This document shows, piece by piece, positions 44,510-62,211 of a stretch of DNA of 64,000 nucleotides. Position numbers and translations under genes: made by a program. Numbering within the stretch: position 1 is the stretch's first letter; every line of letters begins with the position of its first letter. The DNA lies in the NCBI GenBank assembly GCA_035504415.1, contig DATJRY010000011.1:310001-374000 (forward strand), given 5' to 3'. The stretch is from Candidatus Sulfotelmatobacter sp. Its GTDB lineage: Bacteria; Vulcanimicrobiota; Vulcanimicrobiia; Vulcanimicrobiales; Vulcanimicrobiaceae. The notes below the pieces were generated by a model that saw nothing but the letters and a program-made list of their open reading frames with translations, was not told the DNA's origin and did no database searches.

Positions 44510-45286
44510 TCACGTCCGCCCGAGCAGCGCCTCGTGCAAGAGGTCGGTGACGAACATGTGGCCGGGCTCGTGGGTGATCGCGAAGGGGAGCTTGCTGGCG
44601 ACGATGACGCTCTGCGGCGTCACGCCGCAGCCCCAGAACACCGGCACGTCTCCCGCTTCGAGCACCGGCGGGTCGCCGTACTCGGGGCGCATGATGTCGG
44701 CGATGCCGAGCTGCGCGGGATCGCCCCAGGCCACCGGCTCGCCGTGCCCCACGCGAAAGGCGCGCGTGACCTCGCGCGCGCGTTCGACCTGGTCGGCCTT
44801 GTACGGGCGCATGCTCACGACCATCGGGCCGTGCAGCCGGCCCGCCGCGGCCAGCGGGACGCGGGTGCGGTACATCGGGACGTTGCGGTGCAGCGCGTAG
44901 TGGCGCGGCGGCAGGCCGGCCGCGTCGAGCGCGTGGTCGAACGTGAACGAGCAGCCGATCAGGAACGCGACTAGGTCGTCGTTCCACAGGTCGCGCACGT
45001 CGCGCGGCTGCGCGACCAGCTCGCCCTCGCGCCAGACGCGGTAGCGGCCGAGATCGGTGCGCAGGTCGGCGCCGGGCGCGCAGCGGGACGTGTACGCGCC
45101 GGGCGCGAGCGGCGGCTCGACGAGCGGGCACGGCACCGGGTTGCGGGCGCATAGGTCGGCCAGCTCGTCGGCATACGCGCGCGGCACGACGGCCAGGTTC
45201 GCCTGCACGTGCTCGGGCGCGAGCCGCTCGGTCGGGCCGGTGATCTCGCCGCGGCGGACCGCGGCGCGCACCTCGGCGGCCGTCAT
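44510..45286 (-). CDS. DUF1445/YcsI family, D-glutamate cyclase-like hydro-lyase
   Basis: 258 residues. The family core is FLIGCSFTFDHALDAAGLP and the C-terminal WGCGVTPQSVIVASKLPFAI followed by THEPGHMFVTD. A known relative, mitochondrial D-glutamate cyclase, interconverts D-glutamate and 5-oxo-D-proline. The ATG overlaps the stop of the HyuB-like gene (ATGA), so it is the last cistron of the leftward operon. With oxoprolinase-like subunits upstream, a role in turning over 5-oxoproline or a similar cyclic amide is reasonable. Confidence 0.85.
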   Translation of the reverse strand: MTAAEVRAAVRRGEITGPTERLAPEHVQANLAVVPRAYADELADLCARNPVPCPLVEPPLAPGAYTSRCAPGADLRTDLGRYRVWREGELVAQPRDVRDLWNDDLVAFLIGCSFTFDHALDAAGLPPRHYALHRNVPMYRTRVPLAAAGRLHGPMVVSMRPYKADQVERAREVTRAFRVGHGEPVAWGDPAQLGIADIMRPEYGDPPVLEAGDVPVFWGCGVTPQSVIVASKLPFAITHEPGHMFVTDLLHEALLGRT

Positions 45287-46929
45287 TCGGCCACCGCGAT
45301 CCCGTCGGCGACGTCGCGTTCGCGCGCGTGCGGATCGCGTCGCGCCGGATCGCCGAAGCCGCCGCCGCCGGCCGTGCGCACGATGATCGCGTCGCCCGGC
45401 ACCATCGCGACGGTCGTCTTCGCCGGCAGGTCGCGCGTGTTGCCCTCGCGATCGACGAAGACGTGCGCACCGGTCGCGCCCTCGCCGCCCCCGGCTTCAC
45501 CGCGCGGTCGGACCGCGTGGCGTTCGCCCAACAACGAGGCCGTCGCGGTCCCTTCGCGCAACGCGAATGCGCGCACCAGGCCCGACCCGCCGCGGAACGT
45601 CCCGTCGCCGGCGCTCGTCTCGGCGAACTCGTAAGCGGTGATCAGCATCGGCATCCCGCGTTCGATCGCTTCGATCGGCGTGTTGAGCGTGTTGGTCATG
45701 TGGACGTGGATGCCGTCGATTCCGTCGGCATCCGGCCGCGCGCCCATCCCGCAGCCGTTGGTCTCGTAGAACGCCCACGAGTTGCCGGCGCCGTCGAGGC
45801 CGCCGATCATGACGTTGTTCATCGAGCCGCCGCTCTGCGCGGGGACGCGCCCGGGCGCCAGCTTCGCCAGCGCGCCCAGCACCAAATCGGCGTTGCGCAT
45901 CGAGGTCTCGACGTTGCCGCCGCTGACCGCCGCCGGGCGGCGCGGGTTGAGCAGCGTCCCTTCCGGAACGTTGATGGAGACCGGCCGGAACGAGCCGTCG
46001 TTCATCGGGATGCGCGGATCGGTGACGGCCCGGATGGCGTAGTACGCGCCCGAGAGCGTCACGCCGTAGACGGCGTTGAGCGGCAGGTTCGCCTGCGGCG
46101 CGGTGCCCGTGTAGTCGAGCGCGAGCTCGTCGCCGCGCTTCTCGAGTCGAACCCGCAGCACGATCGACGGTTCACCGTGCTCGTCTTCCATCACGTCGCT
46201 GTGCTCGACGACGCCGTCGGGCAGCGCGCGCAGCGCGGCGCGCGTGCGGCGCTCGCCGTCCGCCAGCGCCTTGTCGAGCGCCGCTTCGACGACCTCGACG
46301 CCGTAGCGCTCGATCAGCTCGAGGAAGCGGCGTTCGCCGACGACGTTGCCGGCGATCTGCGCGCGCAGGTCGCCGACCCGCGCCTCCGGCGTGCGCGAGT
46401 TGGCGCGCAGCAGATCGACCGTCGAGTCGACCACCTGGTCGCCGTCCATCAGCAGCAGCGGCGCGACGACGCAGCCCTCGGCGAAAAGGTCGCGTGCGTC
46501 GGGCGGCATCGAGCCGGGGACGGCGCCGCCGACGTCGGTGTGGTGCGCCTTGTTGGCGGCGTAGCCGACGAGCCGATCGCCGGCGTAGATCGCGCGGATG
46601 ACGGTCACGTCGTTGAGGTGCGTCCCCGACAGGTAGGGGTCGTTGACGACGATCATCTGGCCGGCCGCCAGCGCGCGCCCACGCTCTTCCAGCCATGCCA
46701 GCGTGCGGCGCAGACCCCACGGCAGCGAGCCCAGGTGGACGGGGATGTGCTCGGCTTGCGCGGCCAGTCGCGCCCGCGCGTCGAACAGCGCGCACGAGTG
46801 GTCGAGCCGCTCTTTGATGTTCGGCGAGTAGGCGGCGTCGCGCACGGCGATCCCCATCTCTTCCGAGGCGTAGACGAGCGCCGAGGCGACGAGCTCGGCG
46901 GTGATCGGATCGAGGGTCGTGGTCGACAT
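45283..46929 (-). CDS. hyuB: Hydantoinase B / 5-oxoprolinase beta-like subunit
   Basis: 548 residues from the ATG at 46929, which overlaps the HyuA stop. The frame extends further upstream without a start that fits. Family motifs: SPNIKERLDHSCALFDA, VVNDPYLSGTHLNDVTV and HHTDVGGAVPGSMPPDA in the first half, and TAGGGGFGDPARRD at the end. Together with HyuA it forms an ATP-driven enzyme that opens lactam or hydantoin rings. Next to the DUF1445 gene and an ABC importer. Confidence 0.9.
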   Translation of the reverse strand: MSTTTLDPITAELVASALVYASEEMGIAVRDAAYSPNIKERLDHSCALFDARARLAAQAEHIPVHLGSLPWGLRRTLAWLEERGRALAAGQMIVVNDPYLSGTHLNDVTVIRAIYAGDRLVGYAANKAHHTDVGGAVPGSMPPDARDLFAEGCVVAPLLLMDGDQVVDSTVDLLRANSRTPEARVGDLRAQIAGNVVGERRFLELIERYGVEVVEAALDKALADGERRTRAALRALPDGVVEHSDVMEDEHGEPSIVLRVRLEKRGDELALDYTGTAPQANLPLNAVYGVTLSGAYYAIRAVTDPRIPMNDGSFRPVSINVPEGTLLNPRRPAAVSGGNVETSMRNADLVLGALAKLAPGRVPAQSGGSMNNVMIGGLDGAGNSWAFYETNGCGMGARPDADGIDGIHVHMTNTLNTPIEAIERGMPMLITAYEFAETSAGDGTFRGGSGLVRAFALREGTATASLLGERHAVRPRGEAGGGEGATGAHVFVDREGNTRDLPAKTTVAMVPGDAIIVRTAGGGGFGDPARRDPHARERDVADGIAVAE

Positions 46930-48988
46930 CAGCGCTCCAGCACCAGGTTTCCGTAACCGTCGACGCGCGCGCGCCAGGCCGGCGCGACGTACGTCGTCGC
47001 ATCGTACTGCTCGACGACCGCCGGACCGACGAACGCGTCGCCGGGCCGCAGGTGCGCGCGCGCGTAGACGGGCGTGTCGACGAACGCGCTGCCGTCGTAC
47101 ACCGCGCGCCGCTCGCGCAGCGCGCGCGGCTCGGGTGCGCGCGCGGCGGGCGCGGCGGCCGCGACCAGCCGTGGCTTGGGCGTCGCGCCGATCCCGGTCA
47201 CCCGCACGGTGACGACCTCGACCGGATCGCGGCGCGCGGCGAAACCGTAGCGCTGCTCGTGCCGCCGGTGGAACGCCTCGACCGCCTCCTCGATGGTGCG
47301 CGGCGCGGTGACGGCCAGCTCGGTCGACTGCCCGACGTAGCGCAGGTCGAGCTCCCGCACGAAGCTGCGATCGTCCTTGGGCACGCCCTGCCCGCCGAGC
47401 GCGGCGTCGGTCTCCTTCGCCAGCGCGTCGAACAGCGCGCGCACGCGCTTCCACGTCTCCGCGTCGGCCGGTGCGACCAGCGAGCGGACCGCGCCGGCGC
47501 GCACGTCGGCGGCCAGCAAGCCGTACGCCGAGAACACGCCCGGATACATTGGGACGACGATGCGCGCGACGCCGATGTCGGCGGCGACCGCGCACGCGTG
47601 CAGCGGACCGCCGCCGCCGAAGGCGAGCAGGGTGAAGTCGCGTGGATCGTGGCCGCGCTCGACCGAGACGATGCGCAGCACCTTCGCCATCTCGGCGTCG
47701 ACCAGCGCGACGATGCCCGCCGCCGTCCGCTCGACGTCGCCGTCGAGCGGCGCCGCGACCGACGCGACGGCGGCGCGCGACCGCGACGCGTCGATCGGGA
47801 AGGCGCCGTCGAGCAGCGCGCTCGGGTTGAGCCGGCGCAGCACGACGTTGGCGTCGGTGACCGTCGGCTGCTCGCCGCGGCCGTAGCACGCCGGGCCCGG
47901 ATCGGCACCGGCGGAGATCGGGCCGACCCGCAGCGTGGCCGCCGCGTCGAGCCACGCGATCGTCCCGCCGCCCGCGCTGACCTCGGCCAGATCGACGAAC
48001 GGGAAACGCACCGGATAGCCGCTGCCCTTGACCGACCGGCCGCTGTGCGTCGTGCCGGCCGCCTCGAACGACGCGCTCACCTCCGGCACGCCGCCGCGAA
48101 TCGTCCCCGCCTTGGCCGTCGTGCCGCCCATGTCGAACGAGAGCACGTGCTCGATCCCGAGCGCGCGGCCGACGTAGGCCGCGCCGATGACGCCGCTGGC
48201 CGGCCCGCTCTCGATCAGCGTCGCCGGCCGTTTCGCGGCGGCGGCCAGCGCCGCCATCCCGCCGTCGGAACGCATGACGAAGATCGGCGCGCGCACGCCC
48301 GCCTCGCGCACGCCGCGCGCCACCCGCTCGAGATACGCGCGCACGATCGGCCCCAGCGCCGCGTTGACGACGGTGGTCGAGAAGCGCTCGTACTCGCGAT
48401 ACTGCGGATCGACGTCCGACGAGAGCGACAGCTCGACGTCGGGCAACACCTCGGCGAACGCCTCCCCGATCGCGCGTTCGTGCTCGCCGTCGACGTCGGC
48501 GTGCAGCAGCCCCACCGCGACCGAACGAATGCCCCGCTCGCGCACCGCCGCCAGCGCACGGCCGACGCTCTGAGGGTCGAGCGGCAGGATCACCGAGCCG
48601 TCGTGCGCGCGCCGTTCGCGCACGACCAGCCGATCCTCACGCCGCGCCAGCGGCTTCGGTCGCTTTACCGCGAGGTCGTAGATCGCGCTGCGGTTCTGCC
48701 GCCCGATCTCCAGCACGTCGCGAAAGCCCTCGGTGGTGATGAACGCGACGCGCGGCAGCTCCAAGTGCACTTGCCCGAGCAGCGCGTTGGTGGCGATCGT
48801 CGAGGCGTGCGCCACCAGCGCGATCTCGTGCGGCGCGACCTCGCCGAGCAGCGCCGCCAGCGCGCCGAGCAGCCCGTCTTCCGGCGCGCGCGGCGTCGAG
48901 GCGATCTTGTGCCGGATCAGCCGCCCGTCGTCGGCCAAGGCGACCAGATCGGTGAACGTCCCGCCGATGTCGATCCCGACCCGCCAGC

Positions 48989-48992
<4 letters not shown>
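46929..48992 (-). CDS. hyuA: Hydantoinase A / 5-oxoprolinase alpha-like subunit
   Basis: 687 residues from the GTG at 48992. The ATPase-like (ASKHA) fold begins with VGIDIGGTFTDLVAL. SFDMGGTTAKAG is the second phosphate loop and LAFGGGGPLHA a third signature. It uses ATP to phosphorylate the substrate ring carbonyl, with HyuB completing hydrolysis. The GTG overlaps the stop of the LivF-type gene (GTGA), and hyuB begins at its own stop. Whether the substrate is 5-oxoproline, a hydantoin or acetone-like is not resolved. Confidence 0.9.
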
Positions 48993-49704
<712 letters not shown>

Positions 49705-49708
<4 letters not shown>

Positions 49709-50454
49709 CGCGCGCCGTCCGCGATCTCGCCGTGCTCCAGCGGCGAACCCAGGTAGGCGTCGACGACGGCTTGATCGCGCACCGCGGCGCGCGCGTCGCC
49801 GGCGAAGATCGTCTTGCCGGCGGCGATGACGACGACGTGCTCGGCAATCGGCATCAGCACTTCCATCACGTGCTCGACCATCAGCACCGTGATCCCGCGC
49901 GCGAGGATGCTGCGCAGTAGCGCGACCGCGTCGCGGCACTCGGCCGGCGTGAGCCCGGCCATCACCTCGTCGAGCAGCAGCAGCGCCGGCTCGGTGGCCA
50001 GCGCGCGCGCGACCTCCAGCCGCTTCTTGTCGGCGATCGTCAGCGCGCTGCCCAACCGGTACCGCTTGTCGGCCAGCCCGACGAAGTCGAGCACCTCCGC
50101 GGCGTGCGCGATCGCGTCGGGGACGCGCGGATGCCGCAGTAGCGCGCCGGTCGTCACCGCTTCCAGCACGGTCATGTCGGCGAACGTCTGCACGATCTGG
50201 TAGGTGCGCCCGATGCCCAACCGCGCCACCCGGTAGTAGGGCAGTCCCGCGATCTCGCGGCCGCGGAACCGCACGCTGCCGGCGCTGGGCTTCAGCGCGC
50301 CGGCGATGCAGCCGAAGGCGGTCGACTTGCCGGCGCCGTTGGGGCCGATCAGCCCGGTCAGGCGGCCCTCTTCGACGGTCAGGTCGACGCCGTCGAGCGC
50401 GCACACCGAGCCGAACCGCTTGCCCAGGCCACGCACGTCCAAGAGCGCGCTCAT
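49705..50454 (-). CDS. livG: Branched-chain-amino-acid-type ABC transporter ATPase (LivG-like)
   Basis: 249 residues. Walker A is GPNGAGKSTAFGCIA and Walker B LLLLDEVMAGLTP. The signature motif is not LSGGQ but ALTIADKKRLEVARAL, a variant seen in part of the LivG family, so the gene is probably intact. It pairs with LivF on the cytoplasmic face. Four-base overlaps with livF and livM. Confidence 0.92.
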
Positions 50455-51443
50455 GCGGCACGCTCCGCGATCGCCGGCGACGCGTCGACCGCCTGCGCGC
50501 CGCGCCGGCGGCGCAGCGCGTCGACCAGCGAGCCGACGATGCCGCGCGGGCGCCAGGCGGCGATGACGCAGATCAGCGCGCCGTAGATCACCAGGTCGTA
50601 GCCTTTGCCGGTGCCGCCGAGCTGCAGCGCGACGCCCTTGGCCAGCGCGACGTAGATCAGCGCGCCGACCGCCGGTCCCCACACCGTGCCCAGGCCGCCG
50701 ACGACGCCGATCAGCGCGATGTCGATCGAGACCGACAAGGCGATGACCGAGGGCGGATCGACGAACAGCGTGTCCTGCGCGTACAGCACGCCCGCCGCCG
50801 ACGCCATCGCCGCCGACCACGCGAACGCGATCAGCTTCCAGCGCCGCTCGTCGATGCCGACCGACGCGGCCGCGCCGTGATTGGCGCGCAGCGCGCGCAG
50901 ATAGTAGCCCAGCCGCGAGCGTTCCAGCGCCAGCGTCCCGAGCTGCACCAGCGCGAACAGCGCCAGCGCGATCAGCACGTAGTTCGTCTTCTGAGCGAAC
51001 TGCAGGTTGGCCCAGCCGTTGCGGATCGGCAGCTCGAACCCGTTCGCGCCGTTCAGCCAGGACGAGGTGTGCACGAAGGTCTCGACCAGCGCCGCCACCG
51101 CGATCGTCGCGATCGAGAAGTAGTGCCCGCGCAGTGCCAGCGTCGGGAAACCGCTCACGATCGCCAGCACGACGGCCGTCAGCGCGCCGGCCGGGAAGGC
51201 CAGCCACGGCGAGAAGCCGTGCGTCACCAGCAGCGCCGCCGCGTACGCACCGCACGCGAAGAAGATGGCGTGGCCGAACGAGACGTTGCCGGCGTAGCCG
51301 CTGATCCAGTTCCACGACTGCCCGAGCACGGCGTACAGCAGGAAGGTGAACAGCAGCTCGAGCGTCACTTGATCGTGGACGCCGAAGGCGGCCGCGACGG
51401 ACACGACGACGATCGAACCGAGCGCCAACAGATGTCCCCTCAT
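50451..51443 (-). CDS. livM: ABC transporter permease (LivM-like)
   Basis: 330 residues with eight to ten membrane helices. Family landmarks are GYAGNVSFGHAIFFACGAYA near residue 50 and the cytoplasmic coupling loop ERSRLGYYLRALRANHGAAAS, then IGVVGGLGTVWGPAVGA. It forms the membrane channel with LivH. Its ATG overlaps the livH stop. Confidence 0.92.
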   Translation of the reverse strand: MRGHLLALGSIVVVSVAAAFGVHDQVTLELLFTFLLYAVLGQSWNWISGYAGNVSFGHAIFFACGAYAAALLVTHGFSPWLAFPAGALTAVVLAIVSGFPTLALRGHYFSIATIAVAALVETFVHTSSWLNGANGFELPIRNGWANLQFAQKTNYVLIALALFALVQLGTLALERSRLGYYLRALRANHGAAASVGIDERRWKLIAFAWSAAMASAAGVLYAQDTLFVDPPSVIALSVSIDIALIGVVGGLGTVWGPAVGALIYVALAKGVALQLGGTGKGYDLVIYGALICVIAAWRPRGIVGSLVDALRRRRGAQAVDASPAIAERAA

Positions 51444-52306
51444 CGCCGCCCGAGCAACCCTTGCGGCCGCAGCAGCACGACGATCAGGTACGCGAGGTAG
51501 ACCGGGACCAGCTTCAGCTCGGGCGAGAGGTAGAAACCTCCCAGCACTTCGAGCAGCCCGATCAGCACCGCGCCGACCAGCGCTCCTTGAATGCTGCCGA
51601 ACCCACCCAGCGCGACGACGACGAACGCGGTCAGCGCGTACTGCACGCCGACGGTCGGATAGGCGGGGTTCGAGAGCAGCAGCAGCGAGCCGGCCGCGCC
51701 GACGCAGGCGGCGCCGATCCCGAACGCGAGCGCGTTGATGCGCTGCACGTCGATCCCCATCAGCGTCGCCGCGACGCGGTCCTCGGCGACGGCGCGCATC
51801 GCGCGCCCGGTCTCGGTGAACTCGACGAACGCGAACAGCAGCGCCGTGAGCACGATCGCGCCGATCCCTTCGACCAGCGTCGCCTGCGGGATCGCGAACG
51901 CGCCCAGGTGCAGCGTGCCCTGGAACGGCGGGTTGGGCGCCGAGCGGTAGTCGCTGGTGAAGATCGCTTGCGCGAGGCCTTGCATGAGCACCAGCAAACC
52001 GAAGGTACCGAACACCGTCGCCTCCGGCGGACCGGCCAAGAGCCGTCGCACGAACACGCGATAGACGACGATGCCGAACAAGAACAGCGCGATGACGACC
52101 AGCGGCAGCCCCACGATCGGGCCGATCCCGATCAGCGCCAGCCCGACGGCGACGTACATCGCGAGCATGAGGAACTCGCCGTGGGCGAAGTTCACCACGT
52201 CCATCACGCCGTACACCAGCGTCAGGCCGACCGACACCAGGGCGAAGACGAGTCCCGTCAACACCCCGGCGACGATCAGCTGGGCGAGGATGCTCAGTGC
52301 TTCCAC
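51440..52306 (-). CDS. livH: ABC transporter permease (LivH-like)
   Basis: 288 residues from the GTG at 52306, chosen because the following residues enter the first membrane helix (LSILAQLIVAGVLTGLVFAL). A longer frame would run through the end of the binding-protein gene. YGVMDVVNFAHGEFLML and the coupling loop TGRAMRAVAEDRVAATLMGI are typical. The C-terminal helix pair ends in LLRPQGLLGRR. Confidence 0.92.
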   Translation of the reverse strand: MEALSILAQLIVAGVLTGLVFALVSVGLTLVYGVMDVVNFAHGEFLMLAMYVAVGLALIGIGPIVGLPLVVIALFLFGIVVYRVFVRRLLAGPPEATVFGTFGLLVLMQGLAQAIFTSDYRSAPNPPFQGTLHLGAFAIPQATLVEGIGAIVLTALLFAFVEFTETGRAMRAVAEDRVAATLMGIDVQRINALAFGIGAACVGAAGSLLLLSNPAYPTVGVQYALTAFVVVALGGFGSIQGALVGAVLIGLLEVLGGFYLSPELKLVPVYLAYLIVVLLRPQGLLGRR

Positions 52307-53562
52307 GCCGGCATCGGCCACACGACCTTCTTGACCGCGACGTCGAACGGCCAGACGGTCTCGTACTTGCCGTCCTGGATCTGTTCGATGATCCCCTGGC
52401 CACCCGTGTTCTGCCCGGTCGCGTCGAACTGGATGCTCTTCCACGGCATCAGCGTGAGGTCGCCGGGGATGTTGGTCGCCGCGAGCGCGCCGCGGATCGC
52501 GTCCGGCTGGGTCGAACCGGCGCGGTCGATCGCGTCGGCCAGCACCAAGACGCCCATGAAGTCGCGCGCGGTGTTGCCGTCGAGCGGCTTGCCGCCGAAG
52601 CGCTGGCGGAACAGCTGGTCGATCAGCGGGACGGCGTGGTTGCGGTGCTTGATGTCGAGCGAGAACACCTCGCGGGTGAACACGCCTTCGGCGTCGGGGC
52701 CGAGCGTCTTGATGAAGCCCGGGTCAACGAAACCGGCGTCTTGCGCGAGGATCGCCTTGGGCTGCACGCCCTGCTCCTTGAAGCCGCGCATGAACAACAG
52801 CGCGTCGGGCAGGTACGAGGCCATCATGATCACGTCGGGAGCGGCGGCCTTGACCTTCTGCACCTCGGCGTTGACCTCGGTCGTCGTCGCCGGATACGCG
52901 ATGCGGGTGACGACGTCGAAGCCGCGGTGCTTGCCGATGTCGGCTTCCGCGTCGCCCGCACCGGTGCCGAACAGCCCGTCTTCGCCGACGATCGCGATCT
53001 TCTTGACGTCGGCGTGCTGCGTGCGCTGCAGGTCGGCCAAGAACTGGTAGAAGTTTTCGGCGAAGGTGCCGTCGTTGGGCGTGGTGCGGAAGAACCAGTG
53101 CAGGCCGCGCGTCGTCAAACCGGGCGCCGACGAGTCGGGGTTGAGGAACGGAACGCCGTAGCGTTCGGCGACTTGCGAGGCCGTCGCGGTCGTCGAGGAG
53201 ATGTAGGCGCCGATCAGCGCGACGGCATGGTCCTGGGTGATGAGCTGCTCGGCGGCGGCGCGCGCCTGATCGGGCTTGCCCTGCGAGTCGGCGAACACGA
53301 TGCGGATGCGCGCGTGACCCAGGCGCGGCAGCCCGCTGTGGCCGACCATCGGCAGCGGATAGGTGACGTGTCCGTTGACGAGGTCGACGGCCAGCTGCTG
53401 CGCTGCGCGCAGCCCCGCACCGGTCTGGGCCGATGCGCCGGTCAGCGGGAGCACCGAGCCGATCACGATGTCGGGCGGATCGGCGGCGCGCAGACCCGCG
53501 CCGGGGACGGCCGCGAACACGAGCGCGGCGGCGAGAACGAAAGCGAGACGTCGGACCTGCAA
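52294..53562 (-). CDS. livK: Periplasmic substrate-binding protein (LivK-like, type 1 fold)
   Basis: 422 residues. The start is a TTG: AAAGGAGG lies exactly 5 bases upstream and no ATG fits, so the ribosome site decides it. Signal peptide to about 26. The mature protein begins IVIGSVLPLTGASAQTGAG, typical of leucine/amide-binding proteins, with IGAYISSTTATASQVAERYG as the hinge-side ligand loop. It delivers the ligand to the LivHMGF importer encoded just downstream. The ligand is probably an amino-acid or amide related to the Hyu/DUF1445 step. Confidence 0.92.
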   Translation of the reverse strand: MQVRRLAFVLAAALVFAAVPGAGLRAADPPDIVIGSVLPLTGASAQTGAGLRAAQQLAVDLVNGHVTYPLPMVGHSGLPRLGHARIRIVFADSQGKPDQARAAAEQLITQDHAVALIGAYISSTTATASQVAERYGVPFLNPDSSAPGLTTRGLHWFFRTTPNDGTFAENFYQFLADLQRTQHADVKKIAIVGEDGLFGTGAGDAEADIGKHRGFDVVTRIAYPATTTEVNAEVQKVKAAAPDVIMMASYLPDALLFMRGFKEQGVQPKAILAQDAGFVDPGFIKTLGPDAEGVFTREVFSLDIKHRNHAVPLIDQLFRQRFGGKPLDGNTARDFMGVLVLADAIDRAGSTQPDAIRGALAATNIPGDLTLMPWKSIQFDATGQNTGGQGIIEQIQDGKYETVWPFDVAVKKVVWPMPAWKH

Positions 53563-53574
53563 GCGAACCTCCTT
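53557..53574 (-). promoter_or_regulatory. Very strong ribosome binding site before a TTG start
   Basis: AAAGGAGG is followed after 5 bases by TTG (53562-53560), the first codon of the binding-protein gene. It matches the 16S anti-SD almost fully. The high strength would raise production of the binding protein over the other cistrons. Confidence 0.75.
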
Positions 53575-55004
53575 TAGGCGGCGGGGGCGGGAGTGAGCAC
53601 GGGACGCGCCGCCTGGGCGGCGGCGATGGCGCGCGCGAGCGGTTCGTCACCGAGCGCGCGGGCGAGACGGTCGTGCACGAGTCGGGTCGCGGCGACGAAC
53701 CGCGCGCGCTGCGCGTCGTCGAGTAACTCGACGGTCATGCGCTGCGCGAGCTGCGCCAGCAGCTCGTCTTCGAGACGCGCGGCGGCCGCGCGCTGCTCGG
53801 TGAGCGCGTCGCGCATCGCTTCGCCGACCAGCAGCGCACCCGAGCCCAGCGCGGCCAGCAGCTCCGCGTTGGCCACCAGCACGTGCGCCGAGACGGCGTG
53901 CCGCGTCAGCACCAGCCGCTGCTGCGCGCTCCACAGCTCGAGCCCGGCGATGTTCGCCAGCGCGTTCTCTTGGGCGTCGATCTCGCCGGCCGCGAGCGCT
54001 TCGGCCAGGCGCGGAAACGGCAACGGGACGGCGATCGCGCCCAGCGCTTCGGCGAGGTGCACGTTGATCGGCGACTGCTGCACGCGCAGCCGCAAGCCGC
54101 GCAGCGCGTCGGGGTCGCGCACGACCTGATCGCGCGTCGTGAGCGATCGCATGCCGTTGACGACGAAGCCGAGCCCGGTCAGCCCGAGGTCGGCCAGCCC
54201 GTCGAGCACGCGCGCGCCGAACGGTCCGTCGAGGAACGCGTCGGCGTGCGCGAAGCCGTCGAGCAGGTACGGCAGCTCGATCAGCTGCGCCTCGGGCAGC
54301 AGCGTTCCGGCCACCGGCGCGGTCACCGAGGCCAGCGCGAGGTCGCCGCTGCGCAGATCGACCAGCGTCTGCACCTCGCCGCCCGGCGCGCGCGACGGCA
54401 ATTCCAGCGCGACGCGGATCGCGCCGCCGCTGCGCTCGTCGACCAGCTCGGCGAAGCGCGTCAGCGCGCGGCCGACGTTCGAGCGCGGCACCGTCAGCGT
54501 CGCCACGCGCAGCGTCGTCACCAAACCGGCGCGCGGACGCGGGGCGAGCGGACGCGGTCCGCCGGTGGCCGCCGGCGTCTGCCGGGCCGCGCGCTCGACC
54601 CGCGCCAACGCGTCCGGCCCCAGGTCCGGCTCGAGCGCCGCCAGCGCGCGGCCGAGCGGCTCGAGCTCGGCCAGCAGCGCCCGCGTGCGCGCGGTCGGGT
54701 GGACGCGGATGACGCGCTTGTCGCTCGGGTCGGGGCGGCGCTGCGCAAGGCCGGCGTCCTCGAGCTTGTCGAGGTGGCCGCTGAGCGAGGAGCCGTCGAG
54801 CCGCAGCGCCGCCGCCAGGTCGGACGGCCGGGCGCCGCCCTCGGCCGCCGCCAACAGCAAGAGAACGAAGTACGGGACGTAGCTCAGGCCGTGCGGGCGC
54901 AGCCGGCGGTTGTACTCGCGCACCAGCTCGCGCGCCGCGACGTCCAGGGCGAAGCCCCGAAAGTCGGACGGATGGAGCGAGGGCGCGGACCGCGTGGCTG
55001 CCAA
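53574..55004 (-). CDS. MarR-type regulator fused to a TRAP (DctP-like) ligand-binding domain
   Basis: 476 residues. Residues about 1-145 are a MarR winged helix: LSYVPYFVLLLLAAAEGGAR, SDLAAALRLDGSSLSGHLDKL and RRPDPSDKRVIRVHPTARTR. After a Pro/Arg linker, residues about 165-445 follow the DctP fold of TRAP transporters: LRVATLTVPRSNVGRALTRF at the start, LRGLRLRVQQ with the carboxylate-binding Arg, and PLPFPRLAEALAAGEIDAQENAL. No signal peptide, so the domain is cytoplasmic. It starts the nine-gene operon, 11 bases before the binding-protein gene. Ligand sensing by the DctP domain is inference. Confidence 0.82.
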   Translation of the reverse strand: MAATRSAPSLHPSDFRGFALDVAARELVREYNRRLRPHGLSYVPYFVLLLLAAAEGGARPSDLAAALRLDGSSLSGHLDKLEDAGLAQRRPDPSDKRVIRVHPTARTRALLAELEPLGRALAALEPDLGPDALARVERAARQTPAATGGPRPLAPRPRAGLVTTLRVATLTVPRSNVGRALTRFAELVDERSGGAIRVALELPSRAPGGEVQTLVDLRSGDLALASVTAPVAGTLLPEAQLIELPYLLDGFAHADAFLDGPFGARVLDGLADLGLTGLGFVVNGMRSLTTRDQVVRDPDALRGLRLRVQQSPINVHLAEALGAIAVPLPFPRLAEALAAGEIDAQENALANIAGLELWSAQQRLVLTRHAVSAHVLVANAELLAALGSGALLVGEAMRDALTEQRAAAARLEDELLAQLAQRMTVELLDDAQRARFVAATRLVHDRLARALGDEPLARAIAAAQAARPVLTPAPAA

Positions 55005-55133
55005 ACGAGCTGCCTCCTGGCCGGAGTGCGACGTGGAGGCAACGATACCGCCGAGAAGCGGCTACGTCAATATTTCGGTTCCCAAGTAATTGCGGAGGTG
55101 TGAGCGATCATCTAGTCGCACGCTCGCTCGGAC

Positions 55134-55655
55134 ATGGCGACGACGCAAGTCTGGGAAGACACCATCCACCTGCTGCTGGGCAACGTGATCTACACGCACC
55201 TGTACGCCTACGTGGATCCGGCGCTCGCGCAAGGCGCGAGCTTGCAGAACGCGTTCACCTTCGAAGCCGACGTGCGCGTCGCGAGCGCGGAGCTCTACAC
55301 GACCGCGCGCGTCCCGCTGGCGAACGGCGCGCTCACCGCGACGCCGACGCTGGCCGAGTACGCCGCGCAGCTCGGCACCGTGCAAGGCGAGATCGACGAT
55401 TGGAACTGTTTGCCGACGCCGGGTGCGTGGGCGACCGCGACGGCGGTGCACTTCCTGATCGCCGCCAAAGCCGACGCGTCCGTCCCGCTGACGACGATCG
55501 AACAAGCCATGCCGGCGCTCAAGCCGGTGCTCGGCGTGGTCGGACCGTTTCTTCCGCAGAAGGTACGGATCACGATCGGCCACGCGCCCGTCCACATCCC
55601 GATCGCGCGGGATCAGACGGGCGCGGTGGTCGCGATCAACGGGACGCGGCTTTAG
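55134..55655 (+). CDS. Hypothetical protein
   Basis: 173 residues, not recognised. No signal peptide. Alternating strands in the middle and short amphipathic helices; PTPTLAEYAAQLG-type and EQAMPALKPVLGVVGPFLP segments. No ribosome site is clear before the ATG. The stop overlaps the end of the convergent Tat-exported binding protein by four bases. The 129-base gap to the MarR-DctP gene holds an imperfect CAATATTT-N8-AAGTAATTG-like repeat that could be a MarR operator. Confidence 0.6.
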   Translation: MATTQVWEDTIHLLLGNVIYTHLYAYVDPALAQGASLQNAFTFEADVRVASAELYTTARVPLANGALTATPTLAEYAAQLGTVQGEIDDWNCLPTPGAWATATAVHFLIAAKADASVPLTTIEQAMPALKPVLGVVGPFLPQKVRITIGHAPVHIPIARDQTGAVVAINGTRL

Positions 55656-61344: not shown

Positions 61345-62211
61345 ATGCCGCAGCCCACGACGTTCTCGATCGTCGCCGCCGATCCGCGCACGAACGAGAT
61401 CGGGATCGCCGTCCAGTCGAAGTTCCTCTCGGTCGGCGCGGCCGTCCCGTGGGTCGAAGGCGCGGTCGGCGGCGTCGCGACCCAGGCCTGGGCGAACACG
61501 ACCTTCGGGCCGCGCGGCCTGCGCGCGCTGCGCGACGGTGCCGCGCCCGACGACGTGCTGCGCGCGTTGCTCGCCGACGATCCACAGGCCCAGGACCGGC
61601 AGGTGGGCATCGTCGACGCCCAGGGCCGCGCCGTCACCTTCACCGGCGAACGCTGCATCGGCTGGGCGGGCGGAGTCGCCGGCGACGGGTTCGCGGCGCA
61701 AGGCAACTGTCTGGCCGGCGCCGCCGTCGTCGACGCGCTGGCCGCGACGTTCCGCGGCGCGCGCGGCACGCTCTCGGACCGGCTCGTCGCGGCGCTGGCG
61801 GCCGCCCAGCGCGCCGGCGGCGACAAACGCGGGCAACAGAGCGCGGCGCTCGTCGTCGCCAAACCGGGCGGCGGGTACGGCGGGTTCAACGACCGCTACG
61901 TCGATCTGCGCGTCGACGACCACGCGGCGCCGATCGACGAGCTGGCGCGCATCCTCGAGCTGCACAAGCTCTACTTCTTCCCGCCCGCGCCCGAAGACGT
62001 GCTCGTGGTCGACGACGCGCTGGGGCGCACGCTCGTGCGCGAGCTGGTGCGCCTCGGCGAGCTTCCCGCCGGCGCGAGCGCGTACGACCAGCGCGCCCGC
62101 GACGCGCTCGTCGCGCTCATGCACGTCGAGAATCTCGAGAACCGCGTGCGCGACGACGGCACGATCGACCGTCAGACGCTGGACTACCTCACCGCGCTGC
62201 GCCGCGGCTGA
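61345..62211 (+). CDS. DUF1028-family Ntn-hydrolase-like protein
   Basis: 288 residues. TFSIVAADPRTNEIGIAVQS opens the DUF1028 fold, followed by AVPWVEGAVGGVATQAWAN, both diagnostic. The C-terminal 100 residues are helical and mark the longer version of the family, sometimes called a peptidoglycan-binding type. DUF1028 is related to Ntn hydrolases, with an amidase-like role suspected but not proved. Divergent from the Rieske gene. Confidence 0.87.
   Translation: MPQPTTFSIVAADPRTNEIGIAVQSKFLSVGAAVPWVEGAVGGVATQAWANTTFGPRGLRALRDGAAPDDVLRALLADDPQAQDRQVGIVDAQGRAVTFTGERCIGWAGGVAGDGFAAQGNCLAGAAVVDALAATFRGARGTLSDRLVAALAAAQRAGGDKRGQQSAALVVAKPGGGYGGFNDRYVDLRVDDHAAPIDELARILELHKLYFFPPAPEDVLVVDDALGRTLVRELVRLGELPAGASAYDQRARDALVALMHVENLENRVRDDGTIDRQTLDYLTALRRG

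Follow-up and report, generated by a model that had tools for sequence, protein, structure and literature searches.

Here we describe a gene in which a MarR winged helix and a DctP (TRAP solute-binding) domain are read as one protein, encoded in a 64,000-nucleotide stretch of DNA (the window) from a Candidatus Sulfotelmatobacter genome (G000). The best explanation, and one that we consider likely, is that the protein is a ligand-sensing cytosolic one-component regulator of its own operon, whose DctP half comes from a clade of soluble chemoreceptors. A first-pass annotation of the window had proposed a one-component regulator made of MarR and a transport-derived DctP domain, and orthologs, a structure model, the ligand pocket, selection, and a conserved operon and promoter support that proposal. 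Thus, all the evidence that sequence can provide supports the regulator reading, in which DNA binding and ligand binding are predicted activities.

The fusion gene (53574–55004, minus strand) starts with TTG and reads from 55004 down to 53574 as a single frame of 476 residues with no internal stops. Pfam places MarR_2 at residues 38–97 (2.1e-12, above the gathering cut-off), with a second MarR-family match (MarR, 1.2e-11), and DctP (PF03480) at residues 172–447 (4.8e-48, profile positions 6–282 of 286, above the gathering cut-off). These are the only domains assigned by Pfam, with neither an SgrR-type HTH nor SBP_bac_5. DctP domains normally work outside the membrane, in nutrient transporters. 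In a hydropathy scan with 19-residue windows, neither a signal peptide nor a transmembrane segment was found in the fusion protein; the maximum (1.88) lies within the DctP core, compared with 2.3–2.8 in the operon's LivM and LivH. The annotation's description of a MarR domain joined to a complete DctP domain without a signal peptide is borne out by these matches and by the hydropathy profile, and the two motifs that it named, LRGLRLRV and DAQEN, are present at residues 301–308 and 343–347, respectively.

We modelled the protein with AlphaFold2 using an alignment of 50 sequences of the phylum (pLDDT 88.8). The model comprises the MarR winged-helix domain with its flanking helices (residues 16–141; 54582–54959), a low-confidence linker (residues 142–160; 54525–54581) that is disordered at residues 142–157 (pLDDT <50) and a complete TRAP binding-protein fold (residues 163–465; 53610–54518), all on the minus strand. 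The MarR part consists of helices 16–38, 42–53, 60–67, 71–83, 105–123 and 130–141 and wing strands 87–91 and 99–103. The N- and C-terminal helices, which are the MarR dimer helices, are present in this monomer model, and the DxR motif of the wing (D95/R97) is invariant across the three same-genus fusions described below. For the DctP part, Foldseek returned TM scores (by target length) of 0.87–0.92 to most of the top TRAP solute-binding protein structures (r.m.s.d. mostly 2.0–2.5) and of 0.82–0.85 to a few SiaP chains. A sequence comparison with solved structures likewise ranks TRAP binding proteins first, the best being 4p47 (5.4e-38 over residues 180–461).

The IseP binding protein contacts its ligand via R156, R177 and N217 (PMC11668362), and an arginine at the position of SiaP R147 is the carboxylate filter of TRAP solute-binding proteins (PMC4646407). 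The fusion has R286 (54147–54149), R307 (54084–54086) and N347 (53964–53966; all minus strand) at spacings of 21 and 40, equal to those of the IseP residues; R286 and N347 would correspond by this spacing to R156 and N217, and R307, at the position of SiaP R147 and IseP R177, pairs with the KIR arginine in the alignment to 4p47. R307 is kept in 4/4 MarR–DctP, 7/7 MCP–DctP, 15–16 of 16 MCP–DctP–MCP and 20/20 extracytoplasmic rows. Among the signalling DctP rows examined, R307 is never missing and R286 and N347 show one miss each, both in chemoreceptor rows, and the three residues together with the QEN motif are kept in all four MarR–DctP proteins and in almost all related chemoreceptors. The annotation had pointed to a loss of pocket residues as the outcome that would undo its reading; all three residues are kept and the fold is complete. 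Because the carboxylate pocket is kept, a carboxylate is the natural expectation as the ligand of the DctP half. A DctP of Bordetella pertussis binds pyroglutamate at 0.3 µM (cited in PMC11668362), and this class of ligand would thus be within reach of the DctP fold.

Uninterrupted fusions with both domains in one frame are found in four Eremiobacterota genomes (G000, G001, G005 and G111), and a fifth, in G129, is intact as far as the contig end, where it is cut off. G000, G001 and G005 belong to one genus, G111 to another and G129 to a third. Identity to the window fusion is 72% for G001, 68% for G005, 74% for G129 and 52% for G111 over the DctP part. The G001 fusion sits on contig PLJL01000004.1 of a permafrost-site MAG (Candidatus Eremiobacterota), and this record was the only one returned by a scan of genome contigs for a wider spread. 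A tblastn search against plasmids yielded DctP-only matches, none of which reached 80% query coverage, and no further MarR–DctP fusion was found in 388 genomes reaching beyond the phylum, for which the best four candidates per genome were scored. Between G000 and G001, pN, pS and pN/pS are 0.17, 0.46 and 0.37 for the MarR half and 0.20, 0.34 and 0.59 for the DctP half, with the linker freer to change than either half, all as simple Nei–Gojobori counts in GC-rich DNA that serve as a rough guide only. This comparison supports purifying selection on both domains.

Gene order is identical in G000, G001, G005 and G111, with MarR–DctP first. The genes behind it in the window, all on the minus strand, encode the binding protein of an ABC importer (Peripla_BP_6; 52294–53562), LivH-type (51440–52297) and LivM-type (50451–51443) permeases, LivG-type (49705–50454) and LivF-type (48989–49708) ATPases, hydantoinase/oxoprolinase A (Hydantoinase_A; 46929–48992), hydantoinase B/oxoprolinase (Hydantoinase_B; 45283–46929) and a D-glutamate cyclase family protein (D-Glu_cyclase; DUF1445, putative hydro-lyase; 44510–45286). 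The permeases are of the BPD_transp_2 type with ABC ATPases, and no TRAP membrane subunit genes are present beside the fusion in the operon. The annotation had this gene beginning an operon of ABC importer and amidohydrolase genes: the operon start and the importer stand, but the enzymes are of the hydantoinase and D-glutamate cyclase families instead. In G005, about 1.6 kb separates the hydantoinase A and B genes (L064 5441–7020), whereas the other genomes have them side by side. Most of the genus also encodes a protein with DUF1028 and PG_binding_2 near the operon (window 61345–62211, plus strand; L083, L084, L086 and L087).

NCBIfam matches hydantoinase A and B best to caprolactamase subunits, but with scores no higher than half the curated cut-off. 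Judging by the neighbouring genes, we guess that the ligand is an acid derived from a lactam, perhaps one resembling 5-oxoproline. The enzyme families of the operon make 5-oxoproline itself a fair candidate, as does its binding by a DctP of B. pertussis. The same operon, with no MarR–DctP in front, is carried by six members of the genus (G002, G004, G006, G007, G008 and G009), so the regulator would be an accessory of the operon and not essential to it. Among the matches listed for these sister species, no plain MarR replaces the fusion upstream of the importer gene.

Upstream of the fusion lies a promoter-like sequence, TTGACG-17-TATCGT (55042–55070, minus strand; 1 found versus 0.0 expected). 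A conserved box, TTGGGAACCGAAATATTGAC (55066–55085, minus strand), contains the imperfect palindrome TTSGGAAYCGAA, which runs into the −35 element and is a candidate operator. The arrangement TTGGGAACCGAAATATTGACG-17 bp-TATCGT is conserved upstream of the fusion in G000, G001, G005 and G129 and has a diverged form in G111; in G005 the arms of the palindrome are perfect. Allowing up to 3 mismatches, no second copy of the palindromic box was found anywhere in the 4.17-Mb genome of G000. In the six species without the fusion, the box before the importer gene is missing in five and present in G009, the assembly of which is 73% complete, such that this fits a recent loss of the fusion, its loss from the assembly or a pre-insertion state alike. 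Given the G009 case, the box could serve a different factor or simply act as a good promoter. In G111 (L065 1–91), a few bases separate the −10-like hexamer from the ATG, and the transcript may thus be leaderless. A 173-residue ORF (55134–55655, plus strand) is divergent from the fusion and shares the intergenic region with its promoter; it has no Pfam or NCBIfam match and was not found at the related loci.

In the mechanism that we propose, the MarR half would bind the promoter/operator just upstream of its own gene, and the DctP half, a Venus-flytrap sensor, would close on a carboxylate taken up or produced by the operon. Closure would shift the MarR dimer at the box by the −35 element, given the dimerization and allosteric coupling that we infer, and this shift would alter transcription of the regulator, importer and enzymes together. 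Derepression is the default sign of control for MarR proteins, and a box abutting the −35 element would also permit activation. The DctP half would descend from the cytosolic DctP sensors of soluble MCP–DctP chemoreceptors, and not directly from a TRAP binding protein.

That the fusion is an artefact, through an assembly or annotation error or a frameshift that joined separate marR and dctP genes, is a reading to which we attach next to no probability. A join would indeed look like this, with the DctP domain beginning at its first strand directly behind the MarR helices, but four independently assembled genomes read through the same junction (52–72% identity), and a fifth does so up to its contig end, and the fused ORF heads the same operon in each genome for which the neighbourhood was covered. 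A frameshift or join at about 54500–54570, raised in the annotation as the finding that would overturn it, is excluded because of these one-frame orthologs, which already refute the artefact reading. We also find it rather improbable that the DctP half is dead or purely structural, aiding dimerization or stability, with the effector bound at the MarR dimer interface, as it is in typical members of that family. The four MarR–DctP proteins and almost all related chemoreceptors retain the three pocket residues and the QEN motif, and the entire binding-protein fold is intact in the model, even though the DctP half is somewhat less constrained than the MarR half between G000 and G001, its candidate ligand is read from neighbouring genes and MarR proteins carry a ligand site of their own. 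Finally, there is a slim chance that the protein is a regulator whose main target lies elsewhere and whose place before the ABC/hydantoinase operon is incidental. The six species of the genus that have the operon without the fusion would fit such an arrangement, as would the divergent ORF at 55134, which shares the intergenic space in G000 only; by contrast, the first-gene position is the same in four genomes of two genera, and the promoter box has a single genomic copy in G000.

The DctP domains nearest to that of the fusion belong to large soluble MCP–DctP (about 600 residues) and MCP–DctP–MCP (about 900 residues) proteins of the same family, in which MCPsignal and DctP are both far above cut-off. 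In a maximum-likelihood tree of 46 DctP domains, a branch with 100/100 support parts signalling DctP from 19 extracytoplasmic domains, and in a larger tree with 28 extracytoplasmic domains the corresponding branch has 98/98, these outgroups (19 and 28 rows) being a limited sample. MarR–DctP forms a clade (100/99) inside the signalling clade in both trees. It groups with the MCP–DctP type in the first tree (98/96), whereas its branching order relative to the two chemoreceptor types is not settled in the larger tree. The transport-derived sensor of the first-pass annotation is therefore upheld as to its DctP fold, but its nearest relatives are soluble chemoreceptors, not TRAP binding proteins. 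In addition, the G111 linker resembles the end of an MCP domain: it scores 23.3 bits against an MCP–DctP receptor model, for which the best of 2915 scored shuffles reaches 18.2 bits and plain MarR proteins reach at most 8.1, and across 43 residues it is 42% identical to the receptor of G008, at the matching place (E 6e-6, single comparison). As an MCP-like remnant this stretch, short and seen in one sequence only, is suggestive.

The domain has probably passed from the periplasm to a soluble chemoreceptor and from there to a MarR regulator. We give roughly even chances to the fuller account, in which a single exit from the periplasm in this lineage produced a soluble chemoreceptor sensor that then moved, with a piece of receptor helix, into a MarR factor; in that case, cells would rely on a single sensor module both to direct their movement and to turn on genes for uptake and breakdown. 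Direct capture of the DctP half from a TRAP binding protein gene, independent of the chemoreceptors and with the MCP-like linker of G111 being a MarR C-terminal helix, appears unlikely. It would be compatible with the position left unsettled in the larger tree and with a remnant that is short and alanine-rich, but it sits poorly with the single signalling clade recovered against both extracytoplasmic samples, and with a linker that outscores every shuffle and all plain MarR proteins and matches the G008 receptor in place.

Solute-binding domains are known in general as sensors of regulators (PMC9602780). SgrR/DsvR (E. coli, V. cholerae) combine an HTH with SBP_bac_5, a transport solute-binding domain used as the cytosolic sensor of a one-component regulator (PMC13060122), and share this layout with the fusion. 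However, SgrR has another HTH family and an ABC-type SBP_bac_5 domain in place of MarR and DctP, and controls SgrS/SetA, whereas the fusion heads a Liv/hydantoinase operon. With DctP TRAP binding proteins (PF03480; SiaP, IseP and 4P47) the fusion has in common the full fold and the R/R/N carboxylate pocket, but it lacks a signal peptide, is joined to MarR and has no TRAP permease genes beside it. Like MarR-family repressors, it has a winged helix, predicted dimerization helices and a promoter-like sequence of its own upstream, and lies near catabolic genes, as such repressors often do; it differs from them by about 330 additional residues that form a second, separate ligand-binding domain. The soluble MCP–DctP and MCP–DctP–MCP proteins of the family have a same-clade cytosolic DctP sensor but an MCP signalling domain as output, in contrast to the predicted DNA binding of the fusion. 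A word search of the open-access literature, with subscription journals outside its scope, yielded no paper describing DctP as part of a MarR regulator or of a soluble chemoreceptor, nor one with the phrase 'DctP domain'. Within that search, DctP in a MarR regulator is new.

DctP would thereby become one more transport binding fold that serves transcription factors as a cytosolic sensor. The fusion also offers a case in which the passage of a ligand-sensing module among transport, chemotaxis and gene control can be traced within one bacterial family. Much is known about the pocket and its key arginine, so the ligand and the signalling are directly testable, and operons with and without the regulator within one genus form a natural contrast that makes its contribution measurable.

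The chemoreceptors themselves vary in architecture. In the MCP–DctP–MCP sandwich of G000 (C15:19462–22164; L021:3463–6165, minus strand), DctP lies between two complete MCP domains without membrane segments; such sandwiches occur in about 15 further genomes and are widespread in the family. A soluble MCP–DctP of G000 (C19; L022:2685–4454, plus strand) is flanked by an IclR regulator on one side and by a hydroquinone 1,2-dioxygenase/aldehyde dehydrogenase operon on the other, and thus, like the fusion, adjoins catabolic genes; two of its three pocket positions carry other residues (K and S), and it sits on a long branch. In other Eremiobacterota families (L127, L128, L130, L132 and L133), DctP follows one N-terminal membrane helix in proteins of about 380–400 residues that are apparently membrane-anchored.
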